Source: Phycisphaerae bacterium RAS2 (GTDB taxonomy: Bacteria > Planctomycetota > Phycisphaerae > UBA1845 > UTPLA1). From it: a stretch of DNA of 64,000 nucleotides. A program made the translations under genes and the position numbers. Every line of letters begins with the position of its first letter. Position 1 is the stretch's first letter. This document shows positions 2,338 through 59,591 of this stretch, piece by piece. Below the pieces are notes generated by a model. That model did not search any database and had not been told where the DNA came from. It saw only the letters and a list, made by a program, of their open reading frames with translations. The stretch is from positions 2,480,001-2,544,000 of the forward strand of contig CP036352.1 in assembly GCA_007753915.1 (NCBI GenBank), in the 5' to 3' direction.

Positions 2338-3312
2338 ATGATGCACGGTCGCTACCGAATGTCCCGCCCGGCGGTCTTTGCGCTGCTCATGGCGCTTTCG
2401 TTGATCTCGCTCTTTCTGCCGCCGCGCTGGACCGACGGCCTGAAGCACGTCGTGCAACTCATGGTGCCGGCACAGGACATGGCCTACACGGCGGCACACG
2501 CCGCGGCGAGGAGCGCCTCGGCGCTGGACCCGAAGCGATCGGCCAACGTCGATGCCGCCCACGAGCAATTGGTGCAGTCCATTGCGTCGCAGGCCGCGCT
2601 GATCGAGCAACTCGAAGCGCAAAACCGTCGCTTGAGCGCGCTGCGCCGCGATCATCTCGATGTGCACGTGCCGCTTCTCGCCGCGCACGTCGTGTCGCTC
2701 GACGTGGTTTCCTGGCGCGATTCGCTTCTGGTGGCGCGCGGTTCCACCGGCGGGGTTGCCTATCGCGACTGGGTGACGGCGCGGCTCTTTGCCGATCGCG
2801 GCTTTGCCTCGGATGTCGCGGATCATCAGCCGGTCCTCGCGACACACGGGTTGATCGGCCGCGTGGAACAGGTCAGCCCGTATCTCTGCCGCATCCAATT
2901 GTTGACGGATGTCAGCGCGCCGCGCGTCGAGGTGCGCGTCGCGCACACTACAGGCGGTGAGGCGCGCATGATCGATTATCCATGCAGCGTCAAGGGCATC
3001 GGTCAGGGCCGCATGGCGATTGATGACATTGACTATCGCTGGATCGAGGGCGCCGCGAGCGCCGATGCGCCGACCGATCCCGCGCGCGCGGCCGGTGATC
3101 GAATGGCCGAGGGCGATCTGGTTTACACCGCTCCCGGCGCGCTGGGACTGCCGCGGCCGGTCGTCATTGGAAAGATCGTCCTGCTCGCGGAGAATCCGCG
3201 TCGCCGCCTGGTGTACACGGCGCAGGTTGCGCCCATGCAGCCCATGGAGGACGTTCGCGAGGTGTACATCGTTCCGTTGACGCCGACCGCGTCGCTCCAG
3301 GTTCCAAATTAG
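2338..3312 (+). CDS. mreC: Rod shape-determining protein MreC-like
   Basis: Periplasmic scaffold linking the MreB cytoskeleton to the cell-wall elongation machinery. The 324-residue protein has one N-terminal membrane segment (about residues 11-28), then a helical coiled-coil (SQAALIEQLEAQNRRLSAL), then a beta-rich C-terminal region with the MreC signature around VLATHGLIGRVEQVSPYLCRIQLLTD. A roughly 25-residue Asp/Ala-rich stretch interrupts the C-terminal domain. No mreB or mreD is adjacent; the next gene (3328) follows after 15 bp and is probably co-transcribed. The family call is good; the exact start (2338 or the ATG at 2359) is uncertain. Confidence 0.8.
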   Translation: MMHGRYRMSRPAVFALLMALSLISLFLPPRWTDGLKHVVQLMVPAQDMAYTAAHAAARSASALDPKRSANVDAAHEQLVQSIASQAALIEQLEAQNRRLSALRRDHLDVHVPLLAAHVVSLDVVSWRDSLLVARGSTGGVAYRDWVTARLFADRGFASDVADHQPVLATHGLIGRVEQVSPYLCRIQLLTDVSAPRVEVRVAHTTGGEARMIDYPCSVKGIGQGRMAIDDIDYRWIEGAASADAPTDPARAAGDRMAEGDLVYTAPGALGLPRPVVIGKIVLLAENPRRRLVYTAQVAPMQPMEDVREVYIVPLTPTASLQVPN

Positions 3313-3327
3313 GAGTTCGTCTCACTC

Positions 3328-4164
3328 ATGAAGCATCGGCCCGCCCCCCGTCATCGTTCACCTCACGCCCGGTTCCGCGCGGCTTCCGCTGATGAAGTCG
3401 AAGCCCCGCGCCGAAAGACCGAGCCGGCGGCGGACGTGCTGTTTCAGGATGAGCATTTCATCATCGTCAACAAGTCGCCCGGCGCCTGGCTTGACGAATC
3501 GCTCGATGATTCGCCCTGCGTGCTCCAGGAATTGGTCGCCGCGGGAAAGATTGACAACGCCGACGGTATCCAACCGGTCTATCCGCTCGAACCGGGGCTT
3601 AGCGGCGTAGCAATCTTTGCTCAAACGCCGCGCGCCATCGAGGCTTCGGACCAATTGATTCTCGCCGACGGTCTTCGCTTGACTTGCCGCGCGATCGTCC
3701 AGGCACATCTTTTGACGCGTGAAGGTGTCATCCCGGGCGCGGTACCGCAGCGACTTCGGACAGGCTCCGCGCTGCGATACCTGGACACCTACGCCCGCGA
3801 GCCGCGTACCGCCTGGACGCTTGTCGACGCGCTGGTCGCATTCGCTGTGATCGACTGCCTGCCGTTCCCGGCGTATCCGTCGCTCGTTCGGGCGCATCTG
3901 GAACTGGCGGGCATGCCGCTGGCCGTCGATCCTGCGTTTGGCGGCTCACGCGCGCTTCTGCTGTCATCGTTCAAGGCCGGCTACCATCCCAGCAAGCGCC
4001 ACGCCGAGCGCCCGCTGATTGCGCGCACAAGCCTCCATGTGCACCGGATCGAATTCCCGCATCCGTTCACGCACGAAGAAATCTGCATCACGGCCGAGCC
4101 GCCGAAGGATTTTCGCGCTACACTGCACCAACTGGACCGTTTCGGCCGCATCGCCCGCGCATGA
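3328..4164 (+). CDS. RluA-like pseudouridine synthase homologue, catalytic Asp missing
   Basis: A 278-residue member of the RluA/RsuA pseudouridine synthase superfamily. The opening of the catalytic domain is recognisable (VLFQDEHFIIVNKSPG, residues 37-52). The motif that in active enzymes reads HRLDxxTSG is here YPLEPGLSG (residues 85-93), so the catalytic Asp is Glu88 and the preceding Arg is Pro. Later in the protein, SLHVHRIEFPHPF matches the RluA block where the product-binding region lies. It is probably inactive on RNA, or an RNA-binding derivative. It lies 15 bp after mreC. The basic N-terminal 35 residues look disordered. Confidence 0.7.
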   Translation: MKHRPAPRHRSPHARFRAASADEVEAPRRKTEPAADVLFQDEHFIIVNKSPGAWLDESLDDSPCVLQELVAAGKIDNADGIQPVYPLEPGLSGVAIFAQTPRAIEASDQLILADGLRLTCRAIVQAHLLTREGVIPGAVPQRLRTGSALRYLDTYAREPRTAWTLVDALVAFAVIDCLPFPAYPSLVRAHLELAGMPLAVDPAFGGSRALLLSSFKAGYHPSKRHAERPLIARTSLHVHRIEFPHPFTHEEICITAEPPKDFRATLHQLDRFGRIARA

Positions 4165-4294
4165 GCTTCGCGCTTCGGGCCTGAATCGGCGATGCCCATT
4201 GTTACTTGAGTAATTCTCATGAACTGCGTATGCTCGGCTTACCCGAGCGGCGCGATCAGGCATTTTGCCCAAGGGATGACTCGTCTACGCTGAC

Positions 4295-7200
4295 ATGCGA
4301 ATGCGATACTCATGGTCATGGTGCTTTTTTGTCGCACTGCCGACGATTCAGGCTGTCGCGCAATCTCCTGCGACTCAACCTGCTGATCCTCCGGTCGAGT
4401 TGCGTACGACGACAACGCTGCGCGACGCCGCTTCGATTACGGCATCCCTCGAATCCTTGCGCGCCGAATTGCAGGCGCTGGCTCCCACGTCCAAACCGGC
4501 CACCTCGCAGCCCACGACCCGGCCCGACGCAGAATTGCCCAGCCGGCTGGACGGCTGGCGAATCGAGTTGTGGCAGGCGCTGACTGAATTGGACGCACAG
4601 CTAAGCGAGCTGCTGCGATTGACGCAGTCCCTGGATACCACGTCGACCGATTCCGACGTTCAGGCGCTCACCGAGCAGATCAGCGAATGGAAGAGCCTGA
4701 CCGAGCAGATGGTAGACCATCCGATTCCGGACGACGTGACCGATGCGCTGATTGCCGAGCGCACCCAATTCTATGAGGAGTATCAAAAGCGACTTGACGA
4801 GATTAATAACACGGTCGCCCAGCAGGAAGCCCTGATCAAGGACGGGTTCCTGGCCCAGCGGGATCGACTCAAGGCAGATCTGGCCCGGGCCTCAACCCTC
4901 CGCGATTCGCTGCTGGCGTCGTACGAATTGGACTTGAAGGCCGCCGACTCGGAATCCCTGCGCGAGATCGTGATGGCGCGGCGGCGTGCGGCCTCGGCAC
5001 GGGTCGCTGCGCTGGAGACGTCGCGCCAGGCGATCGAGCTGAAGGAGAAATCGACCCAGAAGGAGCTTGAACGCAACCGCCTGCGGGCCGAAGCGCTTCG
5101 CCCACTGGTGGCCGCGCTGCGGGAGCGCCTGGCCCGGCTCAACGAGGAAAAATCGCGATCCCAGACGGACAAACTTCGCCGGCTGCTCGACTCGGACACC
5201 ATCAGCGGCACGCGGAAAGAATACATTCGCCTGCAATTGCTTTGCGCCGAGCGGCTGGGGCAGTTGCACCAGACGGTGGACCCGGACCTGTTGGAGCGGT
5301 GTTCGGAGTCGGAGGTCGCGGACCTCACGACAAACCTCACGCGCGACAAGCAATACTGGGAGCAATTCACCGATTCGCTTGCGCGACGCAGCGCCGCCGA
5401 TGTCCTGTCTGCCCACATCCAGGCCAATCGCGAGGAGGAAGCAGCCAGGCGTTATCTGGGGCGGCTGCTCGCACAAATCGACCAGACGATCTCGGAGCAG
5501 CGCGCCATTGAGGACCTGGAGCGCGCCGCGCTGGAGGCGTTTGACCTGCAAGTGACGGCGTTCCGCTCGCTGGCGGCCGGCGCGACGGACGCGGAGACGA
5601 TCAAGCTCAGCCAGGATGTCGGGCAACTGCGCATTGATCTTCGCAATGAGCACGAGGAGCTGCTAAGCCGGCAGCAACTCATCCTGGAGCGCTTGCGCAA
5701 GGCGCAGGATCTGGCGCGACGGCGCGTGCAGCTCTGCGAGCAGGCGGTCAGCCGATTGTACTGGTCGCACCTGATCACGCGCGGACCGCATTATTTCGAC
5801 ATGCGTCGCTATGACGCGCTGACAGCGGAAACAGCCGCCATGGGGGCCGGCGCGCTGGGCGCCGCGGCACGACAAGCCTGGGACTCCACGCAAGCCCAGT
5901 CCAGAACCATGCAGCGCGGCGACTGGATCGTCGTCGTGCTGTCACTGTTGGCGAACCTCCTGATGGCGCTTTGGTTGGTGCGACGGCTCCATTCGCTGCG
6001 TGCCCCCGAGCCGGCCGCTTCGCTACCGCCATCGGCCGACGCGGCTTCCGAGCCTGAACCGCTCACATTTGTCCAGCGGCTGGTTCCGCAAGTTGGACGG
6101 TTTCTCCAACGGTCCGTGCCCTGGCTGTTGCTCGGTTCGATGATCGGCACCCTCATCGTCACGCTTGGATTGACGGGGCTGCCCGCGCAAGTCGGATATG
6201 CGTTGGTTTCGCTGTGGTCGGGGCTGTGGCTTGCAAACACGATCCTGCTGATAGCGTTTTGGGCGCCCAAGACCCGCTTTCGCGTGATCCCTTGCAGCGG
6301 CGTGGTGGCGCGGCATTACCTCCGCTGGGGACGCGTACTCCTCACACTGGCCGTACTCTTTCTCGTGCCCGGCCGCATCCTATCGGCCGCGCAAATCCTC
6401 CCTACCACCGCCGCCCTGCTCAATGAGTGGTTCAAATTCTCTGCAACCATCGCATTCTTCTGCTTCCTGATTCGACGAGAAACGGTTTTGAGCGTTTGGC
6501 CGCGCAACCTGCGCGGTCGCTTTGCGGGCACACTGACGACTTTGCATGCGATCTACCCGGCGATTGTTTTGTTTGTGCTGGGATTGATCTTTTGTCGCGT
6601 TGTCGGCTACACGGCGCTGGCGGACTACCTTTCCACGGGGGCGGTCTCAACCGTGCTGCTTCTGCTCGCGGCGTCGGTCGTCTATCAATTCTTCCGCGAG
6701 ACACTGATTCGCATTGCCGCGCGCATTCGCGAGACACACGACGAACTTGCCGCGACCAGTCCGGCGACTCCTACACACACTGCGCCGGCTCCGGCTCCGA
6801 ACCAGGCGGAGGTCTCTCCGACACTGCCGACTGATAAGCTTCCCTCGATCATTCGCCTGCCGCTATCTATTGCCAAGTGGACACTCGCACTGACCGCGCT
6901 GGTCAGCGCGCTGACCATTTGGGGAATCCGCCCGTACGAAATCAAACGCCTGCTTGACTTCGGGCTATGGGAGCATTCCGGCCAACCGGTCACGCTCTGG
7001 CGAATCGGTGGCGCGGCGCTCGCCGTGTTCGCCGCCGTGGTCGTCTCACGCGGAATTCGACAGACCTTGCAGACGCGATTTTACCCGGCCCATCCGGGGA
7101 TCGATGTCGGCGCCCAGGCTGCCATCGATACGCTCCTGCATTACGTCATCACCTTCATCGGCGTGTACGTCGGGCTGTCCACGCTGCGGCTGGACCTGGG

Positions 7201-25159: not shown

Positions 25160-25672
25160 CGTCGTCGCTCCGCAAAAGCCATTAGCCGTTAGCTGTTAGC
25201 CGTCGGCCATATGCCTTGGGCTTGAGGCTTGGGACCCGAGCCTTGAGGCCTGTTGCCTGGGATTCGCAGGCAGGGTCAGCAGACATTACATCTAACTGCC
25301 CACCGGCCACTGACCACTGACCACTGACCACGTGAAACTTATCGGCCTGCACCTCTGGCCGCTGGAAAACTCCGTTCCGCGAATCTCAAGTTGTAAGGGA
25401 TTCCGCCTCGACCTGCTACGCTGATTGCGTAACCCAAGACATGACAACGCCTTACATCTCTCCCGCTGCGCATTTCACAGCGGCGAGCCGTGTATCCTAA
25501 TTGTGCGGTTGCACAAAGTCAAGGAAATTCCGTGGTCGCCTTGGTGCGATTTCGACCGCCGACGGCCCGTTTCCTGCCCTGTCGATCACGCCGGAGATTG
25601 AGATACAGTTTTGTATAATGAGTGCCAAGTTCAATCCACTCGCTGATTGTCCGGGCGATTGCATCGCCGTTG
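25160..25672. repeat. Intergenic spacer with short degenerate and tandem repeats
   Basis: No credible gene. It holds imperfect runs such as TTAGCCGTTAGCTGTTAGCCG (about 25183-25203), a stretch of CTTGGGCTTGAGGCTTGGGA type, and three tandem copies of the heptamer ACTGACC at about 25309-25330. The heptamer theme recurs, inverted, near 43830. A short frame at 25501-25707 overlaps the following gene's start and lacks a ribosome-binding site. Confidence 0.5.
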
Positions 25673-25688
25673 AAGGAGGCCCAACGCG

Positions 25689-26363
25689 TTGGCAAAGTCC
25701 AAGATAGAGCTTGAAGGGGATTGTGAGAAATACTACCAACACTTGGCCGAATCGCGCGCAGCGCAGGAGTCCGGCGATTATTTGCTCGCACTCGAATGTG
25801 CTGCGAAGTGTCTCGATTTTGTAGATGGAATGATGCGTTTTGAACGCAAATACGAAGAGAAAGAATTCCGCAGTGTAACTGCAATCGATTTTATCTTGAG
25901 AATTGCACCGCTGTTCCTATGCAAACAACTGCTGCTTCAAATCGAAGCATTATTAAAATCGCAACGGCTAATAGAAAAAAATACTTCACAAGATTTAGGC
26001 GACAAATTATCAGAAGCGTGGTTGGCGCTGAAGAATGCCTACCGGCTATGGAATCACTTGGAACAAAATCCTGATTCACGGCAGGATGAGTTGGAAGAGA
26101 TACTTGGCTGGGTACAGGAAGATTGGAGACAACTTTGCCTCCGGTGGGAAGAATTTGGACTCGTATACCGCGAGCCCGAAGGTGTGTCATACAGAATACG
26201 ACTTCGTTATCCCATGCGCGAGCCGACGGAGGGCAAGTGCCCGGCATGCGGCGAAACAGTCAAGAAGCCTAGATGCGAGCTGCTTACTCAAACGCCGTGC
26301 GATGCATGCGGCAAGGTTGAAGTCTTCGTATTAGTAGTTAACAGCGCATCAGCTTCAGTTTAG
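25689..26363 (+). CDS. Helical protein with C-terminal zinc ribbon, partner of DUF4041 gene
   Basis: A 224-residue cytoplasmic protein I do not recognise. The N-terminal ~170 residues are predicted helical (for example YYQHLAESRAAQESGDYLLALECA, TPR-like in feel, written here only as an impression). The C-terminus carries two CxxC knuckles, CPACGE and CDACGK, spaced like a zinc ribbon. TTG at 25689 is the start: AAGGAGG at 25673-25679 lies nine bases upstream. It ends 13 bp before the DUF4041 gene. Both are visibly AT-richer than the surrounding chromosome, suggesting transfer as a pair. Confidence 0.8.
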   Translation: MAKSKIELEGDCEKYYQHLAESRAAQESGDYLLALECAAKCLDFVDGMMRFERKYEEKEFRSVTAIDFILRIAPLFLCKQLLLQIEALLKSQRLIEKNTSQDLGDKLSEAWLALKNAYRLWNHLEQNPDSRQDELEEILGWVQEDWRQLCLRWEEFGLVYREPEGVSYRIRLRYPMREPTEGKCPACGETVKKPRCELLTQTPCDACGKVEVFVLVVNSASASV

Positions 26364-26376
26364 CGAAAGCAAGAAT

Positions 26377-27771
26377 ATGGCGTACGTACTAGCCGTGATC
26401 ATTGGCCTCATTGCAGGCGCCCTATGTGTCTACCTTGGTATGGAGCAACGCCGATTGTCGCTGCAAAGAATCTCCACTGCAATAGAACAGAAGTTACGGG
26501 AGGTCGACGAACTGCGCAGTAGTTCACGGCGGGAGCTAGCACAGAAACGCGAAGATCTCCTTTCTCTTTACGAGAAGGCAGCGAGTCGCTTAGAGAGTCA
26601 GCGATCGCGCTTGTCTCGGCTACTAAAGAAGGAACGGGACAGAATACAAACCAGCTATAAAGCGGCACTTGAGAGAATCGAGTTGCGAAAACGCGAGTTA
26701 GACTTGCGCGATCGAGAGTTGAATAGATTGATTGAGCAGCAAAAAAAGCAAGTCATTTCCTATGAAGAGCACAAGAATGAAAACGTCATACTCAAGCGCG
26801 ACTTGCTATTACTAATTACGAACCTTCGCAAACTTGAATTGGACCGCGACCTATTGAAAGAGGAGCAGGCAAGTCTGGACCTGAAGATCAGTGAATTAGG
26901 CAGCCGCTATTTGAAAGAAAACGTCAAGTGGATAGGCCGGTCGCTTCGCGACGACAATTTTACGCAATGTAAGGATCGGCTGCTCGATGTAATCAGTCGA
27001 TGCCGGGAGGCCGGATTGAAGGTCTCTGTTGATGAAGAGAACGCGCTCGTATCGGAGCTTCGTAGAGACTACGAAGCAGTCGTCAAGACCACGCTTGCCC
27101 GGGAAGAGCAGGCCCGAATCAAGGCGCGAATAAGGGAAGAGGCACTCCGCGAACGAGAGATTCAACGGGAGAAAGAGCGCATCGAACAGGAGGAATCCGC
27201 GATTAAGGCCGCACTGAAAAAGGCGCTGGCGGACGCACAACAGGACCATACCGCCGAGGTGGAGGAGTTAAAGCGCCGATTGGAAGAAGCAGAAAGCCGA
27301 ATGCGGACAGTCTCTCAAGCCGAATTGACCAAGACGGGAACCGTTTATGTGATTTCAAACATCGGCTCATTTGGCGAAGGAATCTTTAAGATTGGTATGA
27401 CGAGGCGGTTGGAGCCATTAGACCGGATCAAGGAGTTAAGCGACGCGTCGGTACCGTTTCCGTTTGACGTTCACATGATGATTACGACGGAGAACGCGCC
27501 GAGCCTTGAACACAAGCTTCACCACGCCTTGCACAAGATGCGAATCAACAAGGCCAACCCACGTAAAGAATTTTTTCGCATCGACATGGAGTCGATTGTA
27601 AACATTGTGAGGGAGAATCACGGGACGGTGGAGTACGTCGCCGAGCCGGAGGCGCTTCAATACCACGAAAGCCTCTCCATGTCTGACGAAGATCATGAGT
27701 ACATCGAGAGCCTTTATGAAGCCGATGACGACGATGATCTTGTCATCGAGAAAGATGTATCGCCGGCGTGA
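26377..27771 (+). CDS. DUF4041 - T5orf172 (GIY-YIG) protein with N-terminal membrane helix
   Basis: A 464-residue protein. Residues 2-21 are a single membrane helix; about 25-190 and 230-315 are long, charged coiled coils; the DUF4041 region lies around 185-250; the T5orf172 domain of the GIY-YIG nuclease superfamily spans about 325-415 (TVYVISNIGSFGEGIFKIGMT, then RIKELSDASVPFPFDVH, LEHKLH, RKEFFRI). The C-terminus is Asp-rich (YEADDDDDLVIE). Such proteins occur in phages and mobile or defence regions; their function is not established. It follows the zinc-ribbon gene by 13 bp. Confidence 0.88.
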   Translation: MAYVLAVIIGLIAGALCVYLGMEQRRLSLQRISTAIEQKLREVDELRSSSRRELAQKREDLLSLYEKAASRLESQRSRLSRLLKKERDRIQTSYKAALERIELRKRELDLRDRELNRLIEQQKKQVISYEEHKNENVILKRDLLLLITNLRKLELDRDLLKEEQASLDLKISELGSRYLKENVKWIGRSLRDDNFTQCKDRLLDVISRCREAGLKVSVDEENALVSELRRDYEAVVKTTLAREEQARIKARIREEALREREIQREKERIEQEESAIKAALKKALADAQQDHTAEVEELKRRLEEAESRMRTVSQAELTKTGTVYVISNIGSFGEGIFKIGMTRRLEPLDRIKELSDASVPFPFDVHMMITTENAPSLEHKLHHALHKMRINKANPRKEFFRIDMESIVNIVRENHGTVEYVAEPEALQYHESLSMSDEDHEYIESLYEADDDDDLVIEKDVSPA

Positions 27772-28111
27772 CGGAACCGCGCCGGGTTGGCCGGCGAATC
27801 TGAAGCTCAATCACCTCTGGATTCTCGCCTCCGCGGGATCGACGACCGACGGCCAGCATGGTTTGTCAAAACGGAACGACTCAACCCTTGGACCGGATGT
27901 GTGCAAATACCCATGTATTGATGATCCAAGCCCGGCCGGAGCAGGCTGCAATGGGATGGACCGGGCCGATTAACTCCAGTTCGGGTTGGCGGCTGACACA
28001 AGTTCCTCATTCAAATTTCCTGAATTTGGTTTCCGGCTTCGGCGGGAGAGAGGTTAGGATTGTGCGGCAGCGGTGGTCACGCACCCATCGCCCATGAAGG
28101 AGAACCGTTTC
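27772..28111. other. Intergenic region, no gene seen
   Basis: About 340 bp between the DUF4041 gene and a secreted-protein gene. GC returns to the chromosomal level. I see no convincing open frame, RNA gene or strong hairpin; a GAAGGAGA box at 28096-28103 belongs to the next gene. Confidence 0.5.
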
Positions 28112-28978
28112 ATGCGTATCCAATTGGCTTGCATGGGCCGATCGTGGCGGCCTGTTCGGTTTCTATCGTGCATCGGCTCCCTTGTCGTGGTGGCCGGGAT
28201 GCAATGCCCGCCGACCGGCAACAACCCACCCGGAGGATCACAGGTTGTGACGGTCACCCCAGCGCCGGTGGTCATTCCCGGGTCGGCCGACTCTGTCACG
28301 ATGACCGTCGCGGTGCAGGGCGCGCAGCCGAGCGACCCGTTTCGCTATGTGTGGCAATTGCCGGCGGACGCATCGGGCGCGCTGGAAGATGCGAACGGCC
28401 CGGTGCCCGCCCTGGGTACGGAGCAGGCCAGCGTCAATTACGTCCTGACCGAACACACGCCGCAGCAGAAGGTGAAACTCGAAACCCTCGGACTGGTGGT
28501 CTTTGAGGTGAATGAAGACGGCAGCAACGGTGAGGAAGTCGGCTCGGTCAACACCGAAGTCACCATCCTGCCGAAGACATGCGACGGCTCCGAAGGCACG
28601 CCGGTCTACACCGGGTGCGGCCTGAACAGCACGTGGCCCAGCTCCGCCCAAATGGGTGAGGAAATCACGATCACCTTCAGTCAGCAATCGGGCGGAATCT
28701 GCGGCGGAACCTGGACGATTTACATGAACATGCCCGGCGAGTTCATATCAGCCGATGGGGGCACCATCTCGACGCAGTCGGCCAGTTTTCCCGACCCGGG
28801 CGCAACGACGACCCGGACCGCTGTGTTCCGTCTCGGCGCGAACGCTTTCGACTATGAAGGCAAACGCCTCTGCCCGCGGGCGCTGGGTTACTACGAGTAT
28901 CCAAGCGACGACACCGGACCGTATATTTACATCACGAACGGAGCGCACGACCTGCTCCCGTTTGTGGTCAATCCATGA
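28112..28978 (+). CDS. Hypothetical lipoprotein
   Basis: A 288-residue exported protein. The start at 28112 follows a GAAGGAGA box by eight bases. A Cys-preceded hydrophobic segment ends in the lipobox VAGMQC (about residues 27-32), so the mature protein is probably lipid-anchored. The mature part opens with Pro/Gly-rich text and contains beta-rich, Ig-like sequence (SQVVTVTPAPVVIPGSADSV) with no catalytic motif. Function unknown. Confidence 0.65.
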   Translation: MRIQLACMGRSWRPVRFLSCIGSLVVVAGMQCPPTGNNPPGGSQVVTVTPAPVVIPGSADSVTMTVAVQGAQPSDPFRYVWQLPADASGALEDANGPVPALGTEQASVNYVLTEHTPQQKVKLETLGLVVFEVNEDGSNGEEVGSVNTEVTILPKTCDGSEGTPVYTGCGLNSTWPSSAQMGEEITITFSQQSGGICGGTWTIYMNMPGEFISADGGTISTQSASFPDPGATTTRTAVFRLGANAFDYEGKRLCPRALGYYEYPSDDTGPYIYITNGAHDLLPFVVNP

Positions 28979-29177
28979 TTAATGACAAAAGAAGTGGTGA
29001 CGTCATTGTGCATGGCGGGTCCGTTGCATCAGATTTCCGTTGAGAGAGGCCGCCCACTCACGCGACCCTTCCCTTTGCGAAAAAAATAGCGCATTTCAAC
29101 TCCAAAATCGGGACTAGCCCCTCCCAAAAGAGCTCCCAGGGTTGAAGTGGCTGGCGGGATTTGTTTACGATGCGGAG

Positions 29178-29834
29178 ATGGCACGCTCTAACTCACCATG
29201 GCGAATTGGCGCTACGGCGATTGTCGCGCTGCTCGCGGCTGGCGCAGCAGCCCGCGCGACGATCATCAACGGCGATTTTGAAGACGGCTTGAACGGCTGG
29301 ACGGTCGTAGACGGAAATTGGATCGTGTTGCCGGGTTCGGGCGGCCAGCACTTCGCCGTGAGCGATGTTGGCGGTTTTATCCAACAGGATTTCTTGATTC
29401 CGGCTGGAGCGCAAACGCTAGAACTCGACTATTCACTTATTCAGTCCGGACCAGGCGGGACGCAGGGGCCAACCGACTTTGTCTCGATGTATCTCGTCGA
29501 TCCGGGGACGGCCGATTCGCTGATACCTCCGGCCGCAGGATTTGAGTTCACGAATCTGTTTCTCAATGAGACGCAGAACGGCGTGGGCGCGGTCAACCCG
29601 GACTACGTGACGATCACCTTTGGCGGCGGCGCCAATCCGGATCATGTGTCGGTTGACCTTTCGCATCTCATCGCCGGCCAAACGGTCCGCATTGCCTTCC
29701 AATTCAGCGACAATCTGCACGACCAACTCGACAGTTTGCTCGCGGTCGACAATGTGCTGATTACCGTGCCCGAACCCGGGTGCGGGTGCCTGGCGTTATT
29801 GGCGTCGGCTCTTCTTCTTGGCAAGCGAAAGTAG
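29178..29834 (+). CDS. PEP-CTERM-type exported protein
   Basis: A 218-residue protein. An N-terminal signal peptide (cleavage near AAARA) is followed by a jelly-roll-like beta domain that begins INGDFEDGLNGWTVV, typical of carbohydrate-binding-like PEP-CTERM proteins. The C-terminus is VPEPGCGCLALLASALLL plus GKRK, a PEP-CTERM tail with unusual Cys residues. ATG at 29178 is preferred to the in-frame TTG at 29142. Sorting would depend on an exosortase elsewhere in the genome. Confidence 0.75.
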   Translation: MARSNSPWRIGATAIVALLAAGAAARATIINGDFEDGLNGWTVVDGNWIVLPGSGGQHFAVSDVGGFIQQDFLIPAGAQTLELDYSLIQSGPGGTQGPTDFVSMYLVDPGTADSLIPPAAGFEFTNLFLNETQNGVGAVNPDYVTITFGGGANPDHVSVDLSHLIAGQTVRIAFQFSDNLHDQLDSLLAVDNVLITVPEPGCGCLALLASALLLGKRK

Positions 29835-30048
29835 GAACCTGGCGGGCCACGCCCACGTTTTCGGCTAACTCCGCACTCCCCGGTCCGCGCCCCGTGTTTC
29901 AAACATAGCTCCCGAAAACACCCCCTGCTGCCCTTGAATTGGATTTTGACAAACGTTAAACTGGGGCCTCAATTCTGCGCGGTGCCGTGACTCGCCCTAT
30001 CTAACCACGGCGACTGGCGCGAGCGGTTTCTTCAGAGGAGGAAAGCCG

Positions 30049-31110
30049 ATGACAAGCGTGACTTCGTTTGCGCGCTCACATGCCGTTATGTCCCCGATGC
30101 GAACACCCCGTCGGATACCGCGAGCGACCCACTTCTGCAGCATCGTGGTCGGGCTCCTTATCACAACGACGATGGACGCCCGCGGCGAACAGGAGACGCA
30201 CCCGGAAGACCTTTTGTTGTCCCCCGGCTCAATCTGCTCGCATGGTCCGACGCTCATCGAGCCGAACCGGGACAATACTTTTCAACAGACTCCAATCAAA
30301 TTCACGAAACTCAATACCAATTTCGTGGCGTTGCCCACGCTGAACTTCAATTACGGCACGCCTCCGGTCACGCTGCTCGATACCGGTAAGCCGGGTACCG
30401 AGAAGACCATCCAGGGCAACATCAATCGCGTTCAGACTCCGACAGCGCCGACGCCCACGGTCCAGATCGAAGGCGGCGAGTGGAACGGAACGTATCACTT
30501 GCGACAATTTCACTTCCACGCGCCGGCGGAGCACATCTCAATCAAGGATGTCGAGTACCCGATGGAAGTGCATCTCGTCCATACCCTGCCCGACCCGAAT
30601 TATCCAAATGACCCGGATCGTTTCCTGGCCGTGCTGGTGATTGGGGCCTGGATGACCGACAATTCCCATACGGGTTTCTATCCTCCCCTGCCGCAACCTC
30701 CGGTCGACCCGGCCCTCGTGAAACTTTTCACCTATCTGCCGAAGAACAACAAGCCCGTCGGCGATTCGGTGACGATGCACCTTGACTCGTTTGACCCGAT
30801 CAAACTGCTGCCTCCCGTTCTCAACCCGAACCCCGCTACACCGTTTCAGGGCCACACCTATCGCTACACCGGCACCCTGACGACGCCGAACTTCAACAAG
30901 CCTATACGCTGGATCGTCTACCGGAATCCCGTCGGGCTGGGTACCAACCAGATAAAGAAATTCACGGATCTGTGGCTCGTCGATGGGGTCGCGCAGGGCA
31001 ACTCACGCAGGCTGCAAAAGCCGCGTGTCAACAATGCGGGGGTTCCTCTTCGGATCGTGGATACAAACGACCCCGAAGCCATGCTCATCGCACCGCAGCC
31101 CGCGCCGTGA
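30049..31110 (+). CDS. Alpha-type carbonic anhydrase
   Basis: Zinc enzyme interconverting CO2 and bicarbonate, probably periplasmic or secreted. The 353-residue protein has a signal sequence (hydrophobic about residues 28-43). The three zinc ligands are seen in LRQFHFHAPAEH (two His) and MEVHLVH (third His), and the C-terminal family motif is in YRYTGTLTTP ... IRWIVYRNP. Loops of the family are longer here, with Pro-rich insertions, so it is larger than usual (about 250 residues). An AGAGGAGGAAA box precedes the ATG. Confidence 0.9.
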   Translation: MTSVTSFARSHAVMSPMRTPRRIPRATHFCSIVVGLLITTTMDARGEQETHPEDLLLSPGSICSHGPTLIEPNRDNTFQQTPIKFTKLNTNFVALPTLNFNYGTPPVTLLDTGKPGTEKTIQGNINRVQTPTAPTPTVQIEGGEWNGTYHLRQFHFHAPAEHISIKDVEYPMEVHLVHTLPDPNYPNDPDRFLAVLVIGAWMTDNSHTGFYPPLPQPPVDPALVKLFTYLPKNNKPVGDSVTMHLDSFDPIKLLPPVLNPNPATPFQGHTYRYTGTLTTPNFNKPIRWIVYRNPVGLGTNQIKKFTDLWLVDGVAQGNSRRLQKPRVNNAGVPLRIVDTNDPEAMLIAPQPAP

Positions 31111-31457
31111 ATTAACGGCGAGGGATGAACTTCCGCGGATTCCACTCGGAATTGAAACTCGCCAGATGGGTGAGGCCGATGGCCTCGCGCAGATGACGAG
31201 TCGAATTACTCCCGCCCCGAGTCTCAAGCCTTTCCCCCAAGCAACGCCCGCGAAAGTCGGCACGGCAGCCGCTCGCGCCGCACGTCCCCTTTCTACGTCC
31301 GACAATCCGCCGCACCGCGCAGCACCCCATTGCTTTGTGCGAAGTCGAATTGGATGTTTAGTCGAAAAGAGGAGTCGGATCGGCGCGCCGCGGCGGGCGG
31401 CGGCCGGGAGATCGACAAACCGTCGGCGCGCGGACGCCGGCGCGGAGGAAGCGAGCC
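31111..31457. other. Intergenic region, no gene seen
   Basis: About 350 bp after the carbonic anhydrase. An in-frame open stretch on the plus strand (30983-31795) is a shadow of neighbouring genes. A GGAGGAAG box at 31444-31451 serves the next gene. Nothing else is evident. Confidence 0.5.
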
Positions 31458-47349: not shown

Positions 47350-48282
47350 ATGCCCTCGCCGTCCAAGCCCCGCAGTTTCGTCTCGATGAAGGACCTCTCG
47401 CCCGATGATCTCCACCGCGTGCTGGAGAAGGCCGCAAAGGTCAAGAAGAACCCCGGCGAGTTTCGCGCCGCCTTCGCCGGCAAGACGCTGGCGATGATCT
47501 TCCAGAAACCCAGCCTGCGAACGCGCGTTTCGTTCGAGGCCGGCATGACGCAGATGGGCGGCCACGCGATCTACCTCGCCCCCACCGATATCTCCATCGG
47601 CCAGCGCGAAACCACCGAGGACATCGCGCTCGTCCTGTCGCGCTTCGTCGATATCATCATGGCTCGCACGTTCGGCCATGACATCGTCGTGGACCTCGCC
47701 CAATACGCCACCGTGCCGGTCATCAACGGCCTCTCCGACCACGAGCACCCGTGTCAGATTCTCGCCGACATGCAGACCATCGCCGAGCGGCGCGGCAAGC
47801 TCAAAGGCCTGCGCTGGGTCTATTGCGGCGACGGCAACAACGTGGCGCACTCGATCATGCTCGGCGGCGCGCTGGCCGGCATGCACGTCACGATCATCGC
47901 GCCGAAGGGCTACCAGCCCAAACCGGAGGTCACGGCCGACACTGACGCAATCGCCAGGTCCACCGGCGGCAGCATCACCGTCACCGACGACATGCCCGGC
48001 GCGGTCAAGGGCGCTGATGCACTCTACACCGACGTCTGGGCCAGCATGGGGCAGGAGGCCGAAGCGGCCGCACGGAAGAAGATCTTTGCCGGCTACACGA
48101 TCGACATGAAGGTGCTTTCGCTGGCCTCGCCGGATTGCGTGTTGCTGCACTGCCTTCCGGCGCACTACGGCGACGAGATCACCTACGACGTGACACGGAC
48201 GAAGAACTCGGCCATCTTCGATGAAGCCGAGAATCGCCTGCACGCGCAGAAGGCGATCATGCTGACGCTGTGCGGGATGTAG
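47350..48282 (+). CDS. argF: Ornithine carbamoyltransferase
   Basis: Forms citrulline from ornithine and carbamoyl phosphate in arginine synthesis. The 310-residue protein has the carbamoyl phosphate motif SLRTR (within KPSLRTRVSFE), HPCQ, TDVWASMGQE and the ornithine-binding HCLPAHYGDE. ATG 47350 is preferred to the frame start at 47314. The SLRTR variant (usual STRTR) keeps the key Arg residues. It is a lone arg gene here. Confidence 0.95.
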   Translation: MPSPSKPRSFVSMKDLSPDDLHRVLEKAAKVKKNPGEFRAAFAGKTLAMIFQKPSLRTRVSFEAGMTQMGGHAIYLAPTDISIGQRETTEDIALVLSRFVDIIMARTFGHDIVVDLAQYATVPVINGLSDHEHPCQILADMQTIAERRGKLKGLRWVYCGDGNNVAHSIMLGGALAGMHVTIIAPKGYQPKPEVTADTDAIARSTGGSITVTDDMPGAVKGADALYTDVWASMGQEAEAAARKKIFAGYTIDMKVLSLASPDCVLLHCLPAHYGDEITYDVTRTKNSAIFDEAENRLHAQKAIMLTLCGM

Positions 48283-48318
48283 GCCGAAGCGTCGGTTCGC
48301 GTATTACAATCTTATTTG

Positions 48319-48837
48319 ATGGCCCAGCCCAACCAGATCGAGCGGCTGACACGATGCATGCTCATCGTGTTGTTTGTCATTTGGCTTGGCTCGTTGTTTA
48401 CATGGGTTAACTTGAGTTTCTTCAGGGCCGGGAAGCTTTGGAGTATTAACTTAACCGATGGTTCCGTAAGCATGTTTGTGGAGCCTTGCACCACGAAGCC
48501 CGGTTACATAAGGACATTTGGATTCAAGTGGCGAATGCCCGGCATGTACGGGCTCACTTCACCCCAATGGCATATCAGGCAATCGCCGACGCCCTTTTTT
48601 GTTGCTATTCAATTTCCGCTCCTGATCGTGATGTGTTCACTCTTGGCAGCCCTGATCGTGATGGAGCGACGAAAACGGCGAGACCGGACAGCCCGGTGTT
48701 CTCGGTGTCACTATCTGCTTATCGCAAATCGCTCCGGCATCTGCCCCGAGTGCGGCACGGTCATACCCGAGGTGCAGCGCGCGCAGCTGGGGTTGGTTGC
48801 ATCGAAACCGCAAGGCACCGTTGAAGACATCCCTTGA
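48319..48837 (+). CDS. Two-helix membrane protein with C-terminal zinc ribbon
   Basis: A 172-residue protein of unknown function. Two membrane helices (about residues 15-36 and 92-112) flank a ~55-residue extracytoplasmic loop. The C-terminus is a zinc ribbon, CSRCHYLLIANRSGICPECG, of the type CxxC(H/R)YxL...CPECG that recurs in the 49758-50555 product. TTG precedes the ATG at 48319, which is taken as start. It follows argF by 36 bp but no functional link is seen. Confidence 0.65.
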   Translation: MAQPNQIERLTRCMLIVLFVIWLGSLFTWVNLSFFRAGKLWSINLTDGSVSMFVEPCTTKPGYIRTFGFKWRMPGMYGLTSPQWHIRQSPTPFFVAIQFPLLIVMCSLLAALIVMERRKRRDRTARCSRCHYLLIANRSGICPECGTVIPEVQRAQLGLVASKPQGTVEDIP

Positions 48838-48887
48838 GTCCTATCGCGCGATTCGGTTCCCCGCCTTACCGCCCCATTCACGAGAGG

Positions 48888-49523
48888 CTAGTTGACGACG
48901 GTGAACGCCACTTCCCCATCGTAACTTACCGAAACCACTTCGCCTGATTGATCAAAGGCAATCTCTCGTTGTACGGCAAAACCAGAATAGGATCCCAGGC
49001 CCCACCCCTCATTGTATCCGATTTGCAAATGTACTACCGTTGTGTTTGGCAATTGAGGTCCAGTTACCTCATCAGGCGACAAGATCCTGGCCGAATACGT
49101 CGAAGCGGCCCATGCCAGTTCCGGCAACTCTCCCGCCTGGGCACTGCGTATGCGCTTCGCATAGTAGACCAATGCCTCTTCATTGACTGCATCGGGAATC
49201 AAAAACAGGGGAAAGCTGCGGTATCCATGGACCTCCGGCATCGTGGTAGCGCTGAACCACTCGGGGCCAACTGTTGAGGCAACGCGCTCGGCCCGCAGAA
49301 TCAGATCAAGTTCGGAGTCATTCGCATAATACCGTATAACCCCAAGCGCAAAGCACCCCTCCACCTTCTGATCGGGAACAGCCGGCGTCATCGTTTCATC
49401 GACGACAATTTCGGTCTCATCCACCTCGCATGGATACCAGCATCCCATGCACAGGGCGCCGGCAAGCGACAACACACAGAATGCCATGCGGATCGGCGAA
49501 AGACAGGCCTCTAATCGCTTCAT
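48888..49523 (-). CDS. Hypothetical lipoprotein carrying the duplicated leader
   Basis: A 211-residue exported protein of unknown function. The signal peptide begins MKRLEACLSPIRMAFCVLSL and ends in a lipobox-like LCMGC (residues 25-29). The mature part is acidic at its start (EVDETEIVVDETMT), otherwise beta-rich. Its first 67 coding bases plus 38 bp upstream are about 90% identical to a segment 1.45 kb away (50908-51012), where they lead into a different reading frame. This makes the leader a mobile or conserved cassette. Confidence 0.65.
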   Translation of the reverse strand: MKRLEACLSPIRMAFCVLSLAGALCMGCWYPCEVDETEIVVDETMTPAVPDQKVEGCFALGVIRYYANDSELDLILRAERVASTVGPEWFSATTMPEVHGYRSFPLFLIPDAVNEEALVYYAKRIRSAQAGELPELAWAASTYSARILSPDEVTGPQLPNTTVVHLQIGYNEGWGLGSYSGFAVQREIAFDQSGEVVSVSYDGEVAFTVVN

Positions 49524-49561
49524 TGGGTCTTGCCTCTTCGCCCGCCGGGCGAGGCAATCGG
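49457..49561 (-). repeat. Duplicated 105-bp leader and signal-peptide cassette, copy A
   Basis: About 90% identical (10 differences by eye over 105 bp) to copy B at 50908-51012, same strand. It covers 38 bp before the start codon, including a hairpin-forming CCTCGCCCGGCGGGCGAAGAGG segment, and the first 22 codons. Confidence 0.75.
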
Positions 49562-49757
49562 CTGGGGACTTACGTGGTTGATGTCCGTAGGAATCTCGGA
49601 TGCACCCGGTGGGTTGCACTCGGGGAAATTGGGGAACCCCAGTCACGTGGACCGGCCTTCCTGCGGGGTTCACTCTACGAGTTCTCCGCCCCTCAGTCTA
49701 GGATAGTTGAAACACTCCCCGGCCAACAGATCCACGCGCACGTTGCTATCCTGTGAT

Positions 49758-50555
49758 CTACCTGTTGAAGGAGAGCACAATGACGAACTGAATCAGCAAG
49801 AGTAGGACCGTGCAGCCTATCCCGATAAGTACGGCAATCACCCACTTTAGTTCAAACAGGTGACGTGCCATCGCAGCATAGCCAATTATCCAATGCGCCA
49901 TTCCAACAAAGACAATAACTCCAAACCCGGATGCGTTCATGATAGTGTTCATTGTTCGGCCAATTTCGGAAAGCAACGGCATGAGTAAGCAGAACGGCGT
50001 TTGGATCGTGAGAACATTGTGAAAGTCAAACGCCCATTTTCCATTCATGTATTTCTGTGCTGCGAGCGATAGGAACAAGATGGTGGTAATTGGCGAAATG
50101 AAAACGGAGAACGATCTGAAGGCCGACAGGCCATTCGATTGATAGAACTGAAATAGATCGCTCACGAAAGCGTTTTGTGAATGCGGAAAGTAGTGGAGCC
50201 TCCATGCGAAAACCGCTACCCACTGGAGCAGGAGATTTGCAAGACATACGAAGGCTAACAACCCGGCCGCACAAATAAGAGCGGAATTCGGCGACACAAT
50301 TTTAACTTGAATGCGCTTGCCTATCCCCTTGGCAAATGCACATGGATGAAACCACGCCTCCAGACACATCAGGAAGAGCCTGAAGAGTGGTCCGCCAAGA
50401 TAAAGTCTTTCCCATGCAAGGGCCGCACCGGGGCTACTAGTGACAGCGATTACCTGTGAGTCGATGCGAGCTCCACATTCGGGACACGAATTAAGGTCGA
50501 GTCCGCGCAGCGGATATCGACATTGCAAGCAATAACACAAATCTGCAATTGGCAC
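49758..50555 (-). CDS. Polytopic membrane protein with N-terminal zinc ribbon
   Basis: A 265-residue protein. It begins with a zinc ribbon, CYCLQCRYPLRGLDLNSCPECG (four-Cys form CLQC ... CPECG, about residues 9-28), then about five membrane helices in the last 170 residues. This is the same ribbon type as in the 48319 gene and is common in planctomycete membrane proteins; no function is established. The base composition is AT-richer than the flanks. It lies between the two genes that share the duplicated leader. Confidence 0.7.
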   Translation of the reverse strand: MPIADLCYCLQCRYPLRGLDLNSCPECGARIDSQVIAVTSSPGAALAWERLYLGGPLFRLFLMCLEAWFHPCAFAKGIGKRIQVKIVSPNSALICAAGLLAFVCLANLLLQWVAVFAWRLHYFPHSQNAFVSDLFQFYQSNGLSAFRSFSVFISPITTILFLSLAAQKYMNGKWAFDFHNVLTIQTPFCLLMPLLSEIGRTMNTIMNASGFGVIVFVGMAHWIIGYAAMARHLFELKWVIAVLIGIGCTVLLLLIQFVIVLSFNR

Positions 50556-50668
50556 GCGTGCCTCGATTCTGCGAAGCGCACGACAGAGACCGATCCAACT
50601 CCCTGCGTTTCGTGGCTAGATACAGGTGCAGTAGCCGCTGGGAGACCCACCTTGACATTGCCCTTCAG

Positions 50669-50974
50669 TTACTGGATTAACTGCGTTCGGCGAGGCGCCA
50701 CCTCCGTAGGGCTTTCCACCACCCAACGCCTGTCCGCTACCATGGTATGTGCCACCGGGGCCGTTCGGCAATTTGATGCACATGAAATAAGCCAGCAACA
50801 CGTACCAGTGCAAGACGCGCAAGTAAAGTATGAGTTACAAAGTGGAGCGCTATCTGCCATGCAGTTGGCATAACCCATTGGGTCTGTATTGCTGTTATAC
50901 GTTAGGCCGCCGGCGAGCGAAAACACACAGAATGCCGGGCGGATCGGCGAAAGACAAGAATCTAATCGCCTCAT
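50669..50974 (-). CDS. Small Cys-rich exported peptide with duplicated leader (possibly frameshifted)
   Basis: A 101-residue frame that starts with the same signal peptide as the 48888 gene (MRRLDSCLSPIRPAFCVFSL) but has an unrelated body: eight Cys between residues 40 and 70, for example CASCTGTCC. After about residue 70 the text loses its Cys pattern, while another minus-strand frame (50616-50822) ends with a Gly-rich, Cys-bearing tail (GQCQGGSPSGYCTCI). The gene may therefore have been frameshifted near 50760-50800. Confidence 0.4.
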   Translation of the reverse strand: MRRLDSCLSPIRPAFCVFSLAGGLTYNSNTDPMGYANCMADSAPLCNSYFTCASCTGTCCWLISCASNCRTAPVAHTMVADRRWVVESPTEVAPRRTQLIQ

Positions 50975-51012
50975 TGAGTCTTGCCTCTTCGCCCGCCGGG
51001 CAAGGCAATCGG
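50908..51012 (-). repeat. Duplicated 105-bp leader and signal-peptide cassette, copy B
   Basis: Counterpart of copy A (49457-49561). It includes the same hairpin-forming stretch and the start codon of the 50669-50974 frame at the same offset (38 bp from the outer edge). Confidence 0.75.
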
Positions 51013-58880: not shown

Positions 58881-59591
58881 CTAAGCTGCGAGCTGTTCTG
58901 GCTGATTACTTTGCTCTGAAGACACTCCCATCATGCCAATCCGCACGACCGTTATATCATCGCTGATCGCTTCGAAGCTGCGAAACACGTGAAGGGCTCG
59001 CTCGATCTCCTCCAGCATGCTTACCTGCCGCATGGCAGCGTCAATCAGGCACGAATGGACGCGGTCATCTCCGAATCGCTCGTCGCCCCGATGCTGATCC
59101 AGAAGCCCATCCGAAAGGAGAATCAGCGAATCTGCTGGTTTCAATATGAGCCGGACCGGCGTCGGGGGTTCATAGCGATCTTTCATCAGCCCCAGAGGCA
59201 GGCCGTACTCCTCCACTTTGCTTTCCTCTCCAAACGCCGCTCGAATCAATCGCGGGGCCGGATTGCCGGCGTTCCAGACCTCGCAGGTTCCTGTCGAAAC
59301 ATCAAACTCAACGACAGTCGCTGCGACGAAGTTCGCCACGCGCGAGCGCTCGAACAGTCGCCGGTTCCACTCGACAAACGTAGCAACCGAGATGGGCTGC
59401 CGCAGGGCCGGCCGCGCCATCGCCTCAAAGCTCCGTGCCCATTCCGCGGCGCGCGGCCCGTGTCCGCAGGCATCGCCCAACGCGACACGCAAGACCGACT
59501 CGACTTGTTCGACGATCACAACGTCACCGCAACCGGCCGGGTCCCACGATTGCTGCCAGAAATCCACGTTTGCATTCAGTGTTACGGTCAT
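58881..59591 (-). CDS. SpoIIE-type PP2C serine phosphatase
   Basis: A 236-residue cytoplasmic phosphatase of the SpoIIE/RsbU group, with metal and active-site motifs VIVEQVE (N-terminal), GDACGHGP, NAGNPAPRLI, ILLSDGLLDQ and DDITVVRIG. It lacks a receiver, PAS or GAF input domain, so it may act on an anti-sigma-antagonist or on a partner encoded elsewhere. ATG 59591 with a GAGGAG box upstream is preferred over the frame start at 59624. It is divergent from the caspase-like gene. Confidence 0.85.
   Translation of the reverse strand: MTVTLNANVDFWQQSWDPAGCGDVVIVEQVESVLRVALGDACGHGPRAAEWARSFEAMARPALRQPISVATFVEWNRRLFERSRVANFVAATVVEFDVSTGTCEVWNAGNPAPRLIRAAFGEESKVEEYGLPLGLMKDRYEPPTPVRLILKPADSLILLSDGLLDQHRGDERFGDDRVHSCLIDAAMRQVSMLEEIERALHVFRSFEAISDDITVVRIGMMGVSSEQSNQPEQLAA

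Follow-up and report, generated by a model that had tools for sequence, protein, structure and literature searches.

A candidate two-gene form of the SNIPE anti-phage defence, with a zinc-ribbon partner gene, in Planctomycetota

Introduction

SNIPE, or PD-Lambda-1 (Saxton et al. 2026, Nature, PMC13190303; Vassallo et al. 2022, PMC9519451), is a membrane nuclease of the GIY-YIG type that cleaves phage DNA while it is being injected, and in 2026 it was described as a one-protein defence (PMC13190303). In the E. coli protein, DUF4041 is the domain that binds DNA as well as the tape-measure protein of the phage, and defence is lost when it is deleted (PMC13190303). The SNIPE paper uses none of the words zinc, ribbon, finger, winged, GYF, two-gene and accessory in its main text (PMC13190303). 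Kiwa and Zorya are described as likewise membrane-based defences around DNA entry, and by that description consist of proteins other than those treated below (PMC13190303, PMC12904381).

Here we consider two adjacent genes, ORF1 and ORF2, in a 64,000-nucleotide stretch of DNA from Phycisphaerae bacterium RAS2 (the window). ORF2 resembles SNIPE in having an N-terminal membrane helix, a long coiled coil and a C-terminal GIY-YIG nuclease with a catalytic glutamate, but differs in having no detectable DUF4041, in its acidic C-terminal tail and in its constant, separate partner gene. We infer that the pair is a new two-gene form of the known SNIPE defence, one that would act against phages.

Results

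The gene pair and its setting

The layout of the locus is as follows.

25531..31278, no strand: stretch between two synteny blocks shared with the same-genus genome G001, holding the cassette (comparison)
25672..25679, plus strand: ORF1 ribosome-binding site GAAGGAGG, 9 nt ahead of the start
25689..26363, plus strand: ORF1, the partner, 224 aa from a TTG start; modelled as a helical domain, a winged helix and, at the C-terminus, a zinc ribbon
26364..26376, plus strand: gap of 13 nt between ORF1 and ORF2 (sequence)
26377..27771, plus strand: ORF2, SNIPE-like membrane nuclease, 464 aa (PADLOC PD-Lambda-1, E 3.7e-77; trees)

The initial annotation of this DNA had proposed a two-gene cassette with a ribosome-binding site, a TTG start and a 13-bp gap, lower in GC than both flanks, and all of this is borne out. 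GC is 0.498 for the gene pair (0.476 for ORF1, 0.510 for ORF2) against 0.612 for the flanks, and GC3 is 0.48 in ORF1 and 0.60 in ORF2, against 0.86 in the adjoining EF-G gene. No sigma-70-like promoter was found on the plus strand in 25200-28100. In G001, ~370 kb separates the counterpart of the left flank (ending at 25530) from that of the right flank (starting at 31279), and what comes after the left flank there is found ~249 kb farther on in the genome of the window, which places the cassette at a rearrangement point. A clean empty site was not obtained in G001, and 25531-28000 was compared with the 12.5 kb of locus L108 only. The annotation had also read the pair as transferred, possibly a defence or phage-derived module, and as a strong candidate for an undescribed system. 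It does look transferred, and the link to defence stands, but a wholly undescribed system is not supported: the nuclease belongs with SNIPE/PD-Lambda-1 (PMC13190303).

ORF2, a SNIPE-like nuclease

Four segments can be marked in ORF2.

26386..26442, plus strand: single N-terminal transmembrane helix, residues 4-22 (hydropathy, mean 2.56)
26761..27081, plus strand: short helical core, residues ~129-235, at the site of DUF4041 in other SNIPEs (alignment)
27337..27615, plus strand: GIY-YIG-type nuclease domain, residues 321-413 (Pfam, profile comparison)
27649..27768, plus strand: acidic tail at the C-terminus, residues 425-464, with a net charge of -14 (sequence)

The best-matching PADLOC profile is that of PD-Lambda-1 (PDLC03976), although the best stretch of this match covers only profile positions 253-478 of 491, and a comparison of profiles against six reference SNIPEs gives E 1e-76 across 341 columns. 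Pfam matches to the nuclease domain (T5orf172, E 4.9e-16; MUG113, E 1.1e-16) agree with the GIY-YIG-superfamily domain first proposed, and profile comparison aligns Glu378 with the catalytic E414 of E. coli SNIPE; the reference copy of SNIPE, 500 aa from phage PhiR26_1, has all eight of the checked residues numbered in the SNIPE paper. Conservation of the catalytic residues had been put forward as a check, and Tyr324, Lys338, Arg350, Glu378 and Asn391 are invariant in 14/14 partner-type nucleases. The membrane helix and coiled coils are seen too, the latter as long helices in an AF2 model that served for helix positions only (mean pLDDT 75, pTM 0.33, nuclease part poorly modelled). By hydropathy, one hydrophobic stretch sits at a near-identical place in 15/15 partner-type proteins, and the tail carries a net charge of -8 to -15 in all 14 for which it was counted. 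On these sequence grounds ORF2 is a relative of SNIPE (PD-Lambda-1), though an atypical one.

Is DUF4041 present at all? The domain had been assigned to ORF2, and we reject that assignment: PF13250 has no match on ORF2 (Pfam, limit E 0.1) and matches none of the 14 partner-type proteins, ORF2 among them (limit E 0.01). Nor does it match any of the eight scanned among the 12 ribbon-fused proteins described below. In what we term the other branch, 15 of the 16 SNIPEs scanned are matched, 14 of them above the cut-off and L034 just below, with none for L037; the branch as named includes both of these. Run against the complete genome, PF13250 again gave no match, a null that is uninformative alone because no control genome gave a match either. 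Compared with DUF4041 by hhalign, the short core alone scores 2.4% probability and the whole mid-region 97% (E 3e-11), much of the aligned part being the coiled coil after the core. ORF2 might therefore retain a DUF4041 remnant that has diverged beyond Pfam detection. DUF4041 is absent outside the ribbon-bearing forms as well, in L037 and in the phage group.

ORF1, the partner

Two domains of ORF1 bear on its role.

26019..26210, plus strand: winged-helix domain, residues 111-174 (AF2 mean pLDDT 93.2)
26235..26327, plus strand: zinc ribbon, residues 183-213, with Cys 184, 187, 204 and 207 (alignment)

The zinc ribbon proposed at the outset is upheld by its four cysteines, which are kept in 15/15 aligned partners; Pfam zinc-ribbon matches on ORF1 are below cut-off only. 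The winged helix, a classic DNA-binding fold, superposes on Zalpha (1qbj) with a VIA-align Z of 11.1 and an rmsd of 1.2 over 63 residues, and reaches similar Z, ~10-11, with MarR/ArsR-type proteins. Outside this domain the fold has no clear structural match, an absence that shows nothing. Among Pfam, PADLOC, PHROGs and NCBIfam, no model matched ORF1 at cut-off or with a convincing score, and the best Pfam E-value over the 15 partners, among 25 of 55 families listed, was 0.0022. ORF1 would thus represent a partner family for which these collections have no dedicated model, and we found no description of it.

At 16/16 loci, the window included and all of them in Planctomycetota, the partner is the gene immediately ahead of a nuclease of this type, and this recurrence exceeds chance; as a gene arrangement it would speak against single-gene action of the kind described for SNIPE. 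At all 15 loci reached by way of the partner (the window and 14 others), the nuclease is the next gene downstream on the same strand, with gaps of about -4 to 21 nt, and the diverged locus L093 supplies the sixteenth pair. Across 14 loci, distances among partners are correlated with those among nucleases (Mantel r 0.57, p 0.0055). The census comprised one genome-collection scan and 1252 genome searches (repeats counted) inside one phylum. A sample of 114 genomes of the order held eight DUF4041-less SNIPEs, each with the partner; partner-less were the DUF4041-bearing SNIPE of G024, which is L066 and has a fused ribbon, and a 95-aa fragment (G496). The partner model gave three strong and five weak matches (E 1e-5 to 3e-4) in the phylum sample and one weak match (G049) in the order sample, and we take the weak ones as chance zinc-ribbon matches.

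Zinc-ribbon genes were sought beside the other-branch SNIPEs and found at 0 of the 16 loci checked. This control skipped L102, one of 17 such loci, and L058, one of 13 partner loci, both of which are without the search motif; it gave a match at 12/12 partner loci, though the two matches listed for L060 are not its partner. The initial annotation had made its case hang on finding the partner at other DUF4041 loci. The partner does recur, but not there, so that the objection, taken literally, holds; this is because the partner goes with the branch that lacks DUF4041. Recurrence near known defence genes, also put forward as a check, is weak. With 124 of 131 ORFs scanned (7 singly) in the flanks of 14 loci, the one clear defence gene is DpdJ in L060, and the remaining defence matches are mostly helicase models on that same DpdJ protein, with unassigned others such as pVip (E 7e-13). 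A defence-island setting was searched for and judged unconvincing; the flanks hold mostly housekeeping genes.

The zinc ribbon in cis and in trans

In unrooted trees the partner-bearing nucleases form a single clade (support 100/97), and 28 planctomycete nucleases fall in one 100/100 clade, of which 15 are paired with the partner, 12 carry a zinc ribbon in their own chain and one has neither. The ribbon-fused proteins (L039, L040, L088-L092, L094-L098), all from one planctomycete family, share with the ORF2 system this clade, the zinc ribbon and, in the eight scanned, the want of DUF4041, and also the acidic tail, seen by charge count in L039 and L040 and from the sequence ends in the other ten. 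They differ in carrying the ribbon in cis, and in a longer hydrophobic stretch or several segments, which by hydropathy we read as a membrane hairpin. Two of them, L094 and L098, have a sub-threshold GYF_2 domain besides. That 12 of the 13 planctomycete kin beside the partner-bearing clade carry the ribbon as part of the nuclease itself points to physical association of the separate partner; in the other branch a fused ribbon occurs in 1/20 rows (L066). The remaining member of the clade, L099, also has no transmembrane stretch, so its start may be lost.

Several loci were handled apart. L059, which ends at a contig edge, was left out of the nuclease alignments, trees and GC figures, and the fragments L033, L036, L038, L043 and L045-L047 were left out of the trees. 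L031 and L035 are in the first tree and out of the second, and L087 and L100, with broken or partial frames and no ribbon seen, are in no tree. Duplicates are L085 (of L040), L086 (of L039) and L084 (of L051).

Discussion

What does the partner do? We favour, with a probability of about one half, an anti-phage system of SNIPE type but with two components, in which the partner replaces DUF4041 as a sensor or docking subunit. ORF2 would be anchored in the inner membrane by its one N-terminal helix, with coiled coil and nuclease reaching into the cytoplasm, and would cut phage DNA on entry. Cytoplasmic ORF1 would assume the task of DUF4041, the binding of DNA and of the tape-measure protein. It would bind ORF2, most likely by contact of its zinc ribbon with the short core or the acidic tail, and as sensor or DNA-docking subunit it would license cutting solely at the injection site. 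A stand-in for DUF4041, whether by sensing, docking or gating, is to our mind the most likely role of the partner; its rivals are an operon regulator and a nuclease inhibitor.

A wider form of this idea, which we offer tentatively, is that DUF4041 was lost and phage recognition passed to the zinc ribbon, membrane topology setting whether the ribbon acts in cis or in trans. In the cis form, the ribbon would be fused behind a membrane hairpin that keeps it cytoplasmic; in the trans form, the nuclease would have a single helix with its N-terminus outside, and the ribbon would reside in a separate winged-helix protein. The tree holds a well-separated DUF4041-less branch; of its 28 planctomycete members, 27 carry the ribbon, either fused or on the separate partner. 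The candidate roles of DUF4041, in tape-measure sensing, DNA binding and restraint of the nuclease, become testable by asking what replaces it, and a partner-protein family with no dedicated model in the four collections above is added.

One might think that ORF1, with a winged helix like those of MarR, ArsR-type and Zalpha domains, is instead an (auto)repressor of the operon whose zinc site is structural and whose task is to hold down the level of a nuclease that could be toxic. ORF1 is the first gene of the operon, its wing is net positive in 12/15 partners, and such control would pay, as the E. coli protein becomes toxic once its membrane helix is removed (PMC13190303). The helix at the recognition position, however, is neutral or acidic in 12/15 partners and positive in three. 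Inverted repeats upstream of nine of the 15 loci are different at each, and a short motif scan, weak evidence in itself, found no 8-mer common to more than three of the 15. A mostly non-basic helix and no shared upstream repeat would speak for ORF1 binding a protein rather than a promoter. A regulator is also hard to square with the nuclease-fused ribbons of the sister lineages; a zinc-ribbon gene is moreover lacking at the 16 other-branch SNIPE loci checked, and we consider this reading unlikely.

Might ORF1 be an antitoxin-like inhibitor or chaperone that keeps the nuclease inactive until infection? Its place upstream and the tight or overlapping junctions would suit such a role, and membrane-bound SNIPE is proposed in the SNIPE paper to be auto-inhibited (PMC13190303). 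We find the proposal quite doubtful, since an obligatory antitoxin would forbid both the cis-fused ribbon of the sister lineages and the phage-borne nucleases tested, which have none; moreover, the nuclease retains a membrane anchor of its own.

That the pair serves not defence but a mobile or recombination function, as a GIY-YIG enzyme of the homing type from an earlier prophage or island, would fit the low GC, the site between two synteny blocks and the tblastn matches to ORF2 in 48 phage records, but is very improbable given that ORF2 groups with SNIPE by its anchor in the membrane, its long coiled coil and the sequence of its nuclease domain, that no phage family was found among the flanking window ORFs (eight proteins scanned in all, pair included), and that four non-exhaustive searches of phages, plasmids and viral contigs found no partner. 

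Phage-encoded nucleases, by contrast, count against the reading that we favour. Of 400 relatives in the viral scan, 80 were retained, and 13 of these went onto the tree. Two within the clade (L111 and L112) and six in a sister group, all phage-encoded, are without partner and without zinc ribbon, and on account of these eight we reject the rule that every DUF4041-less SNIPE has a zinc ribbon. The ribbon is thus not universal, and the nuclease evidently can persist without it and without the partner.

The cassette and its surroundings

The cassette consists of two genes that lie within a break in synteny with a genome of the same genus (G001):

25336-25530, end of the left synteny block with G001, from genome comparison
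25689-26363, plus strand, ORF1, the partner, 224 aa, TTG start preceded by GAAGGAGG
26377-27771, plus strand, ORF2, a SNIPE-like nuclease, 464 aa

The two genes are separated by 13 nt. Their joint GC content is 0.498, versus 0.612 in the surroundings, and third-position GC is 0.48 in ORF1, 0.60 in ORF2 and 0.86 in the neighbouring EF-G gene. The cassette is also lower in GC than its flanks at 13 of 13 other loci measured (L059 was left out), by 2.9 to 10.8 points; in the window the figure is 11.4 points. The neighbouring genes seem unremarkable: by Pfam, the left neighbours are a Clp_N protein and EF-G, and to the right are two ORFs without a match and a eukaryotic-type carbonic anhydrase. The genome is a single 4.32-Mb contig. 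Synteny with G001 stops at 25530 and restarts at 31279 with DNA that in G001 lies some 370 kb away; by this comparison, 25530-31279 is a chromosomal rearrangement point containing the cassette. Two more stretches of lower GC (about 0.52-0.56) occur at 48000-51000 and 59500-64000.

ORF2 as a relative of SNIPE

The PADLOC model PD-Lambda-1 matches ORF2 at E 3.7e-77, its C-terminus matches T5orf172 and MUG113 (Pfam), and by these matches ORF2 is a SNIPE relative. PD-Lambda-1 was first found in PMC9519451 and was renamed SNIPE in PMC13190303, where it is reported to be a membrane-anchored nuclease that cuts phage λ DNA during injection, to lose defence upon deletion of DUF4041 or the change E414A in its catalytic glutamate, and to be toxic without its membrane helix. 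One of two PD-Lambda-1 homologues of Streptococcus thermophilus that were tested reportedly gave protection (PMC12322248), and passages of a review treat Kiwa and Zorya, membrane-based defences around DNA entry (PMC12904381). Our reference is L064, encoded by phage PhiR26_1 and annotated PD-lambda-1; it has all eight checked residues numbered in PMC13190303. The catalytic residues are unchanged in 14 of 14 nucleases that have a separate partner gene (partner-type). In phage ES18 the SNIPE-type gene gp19 (L065, 1508-3037) lies two genes before gp21, a putative example of the tape-measure proteins that SNIPE is said to recognise.

ORF2 shares with SNIPE the profile match and the nuclease domain, but differs in that DUF4041 (PF13250) is not detected. 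Among SNIPEs of the other branch of the family, Pfam DUF4041 matches 15 of 16 scanned: L064 and L021-L024 at 70-83 bits, L066, and 9 of a further 10. These nine include L034, whose 24.9 bits fall slightly short of the cut-off (27). The exception is L037 (1015-2424), a long-branched planctomycete SNIPE in which Pfam finds no DUF4041 and in which a zinc ribbon was likewise not seen. Pfam finds it in none of 14 partner-type proteins and in none of eight scanned that carry a zinc ribbon in their own chain (L039, L040, L089, L091, L094, L095, L096 and L098). In the alignment, the region between reference residues 122 and 200 is 41 residues long in each of the 14 partner-type rows, versus 74 to 79 in complete other-branch rows, and a short helical core stands at the DUF4041 position. 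This core by itself is not recognised as DUF4041 by hhalign (2.4%); a longer mid-region is, at 97%, mainly through its coiled coil. The C-terminal tail has a net charge of -8 to -15 in 14/14 partner-type nucleases, and of -6 to +1 in complete other-branch rows except L030 (-11). From its sequence, then, ORF2 is not an ordinary SNIPE.

The conserved partner

How regular is the association of the two genes? In a first search the partner was present in 6 of 61 related genomes, the window's included, and the nuclease lay directly downstream in all five others. Scanning the species genomes of GTDB turned up 14 partner loci, these five included, all planctomycete by record title; the nuclease follows in 14/14 and in the window, that of L059 being cut off by the contig end. 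L093 is a diverged sixteenth pair locus (129 bits). In an order survey of 114 genomes, searched with both models, eight DUF4041-less nucleases were found, all adjoined by a partner; no partner adjoins the SNIPE of G024, which has both DUF4041 and a fused ribbon, or the nuclease fragment of 95 aa in G496, and no strong partner match occurs without a nuclease, one weak match (G049, E 2.8e-4) being seen. A phylum sample of 392 genomes has strong partner matches in three, each with an adjoining nuclease, and some PD-Lambda-1 match in 39, the weakest short or doubtful. By gene order, ORF1 is a conserved partner of the nuclease.

Gaps between the genes range from about -4 to 21 nt. At eight loci (L050, L052, L054-L057, L060 and L063) the partner stop and nuclease start share one frame with a single codon between (stop-NNN-start), so that read-through at these loci would join partner and nuclease into one natural fusion protein. 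In L060 a DpdJ-like helicase (3295-7161) precedes the pair; it is the sole clear known defence gene identified near any of the 14 loci.

No Pfam, PADLOC, PHROGs or NCBIfam model gave a convincing score on the window's ORF1. An AF2 model built from 15 sequences (mean pLDDT 93.2) predicts helices to residue 126, a winged helix at 111-174 and the strands of a zinc ribbon. Compared with known structures, the winged helix resembles those of Zalpha, MarR and ArsR-type proteins (Z about 10-11); Foldseek gave no match at E 0.001 or better. All four zinc-ribbon cysteines are present in 15/15 partners, the recognition-position helix is net neutral or acidic in 12/15, and the wing is net positive in 12/15.

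Fused and separate zinc ribbons

The tree built from 48 nucleases has a branch with 100/100 support that sets 28 planctomycete sequences apart from the rest, and a first, smaller tree agrees with it. Fifteen have a partner and form one clade (100/97), 12 have a fused ribbon and fall in groups around that clade, and L099 has neither. The partner-type nucleases thus sit among relatives that, with the exception of L099, all bear the ribbon in their own chain. On the usual interpretation of homologues that are fused in some lineages and split in others, this is an argument for the two proteins acting in contact. In the other branch, one fused ribbon is seen among 20 rows (L066), and no zinc ribbon was found in neighbouring frames of 16 loci checked.

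By hydropathy, partner-type nucleases show a single hydrophobic stretch, 21-33 residues long, and ribbon-fused ones either one of 29-54, a range that overlaps the former, or two to three segments. The G197 family, with matches in 24 of the 170 genomes searched, includes SNIPE-like nucleases with the ribbon fused ahead of such a long stretch or several segments. This hydropathy pattern would fit the idea of a ribbon that has to stay in the cytoplasm. A sub-threshold GYF_2 domain also occurs in two ribbon-fused nucleases.

Phage-encoded relatives

A viral scan found 400 stretches encoding a relative, of which 80 loci were kept; local models assign a DUF4041 region to 42, the short core to two and neither to 36. 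Many rows among the viral contigs L113-L147 are nucleases of about 410 aa matching neither model. No partner was found in the DNA surrounding each of the 80. Thirteen were placed on a tree: L111 and L112 fall within the partner/fused clade, and six others form its sister group. None of these eight has a ribbon in its chain, nor was one seen in same-strand frames around L111 and L112. L171, on the other side, has a zinc ribbon. The rule that a DUF4041-less SNIPE always comes with a ribbon therefore fails, and the ribbon is a trait of the planctomycete members.

Proposed function

Homology with SNIPE suggests that the pair acts in defence. Probably, by analogy, a membrane nuclease cleaves DNA at the injection site and the partner substitutes for DUF4041: ORF2 would cut as SNIPE does, and ORF1 would be a cytoplasmic sensor or docking subunit. 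That ORF1 is instead a regulator seems less likely, given the ribbon-fused nucleases, the phage-borne forms without a partner, and the finding that upstream regions of the partner loci share no operator-like repeat. That it is an inhibitor of the nuclease we consider somewhat less likely still, the same three observations standing against it. Among the listed titles and abstract openings of a literature search, mostly of open-access papers, none was found to describe a SNIPE partner protein or a zinc-ribbon SNIPE.

Among the SNIPE-like nucleases, L092 has three zinc ribbons in an open frame of 671 aa, and L095 (801 aa) is extended at its N-terminus by a long additional region. What looks like one and the same nuclease (L051 / L084) occurs in G594, a genome placed in family f39, to which ribbon-fused forms also belong, and on a contig whose title names Candidatus Kuenenia stuttgartiensis; that title may be mislabelled.
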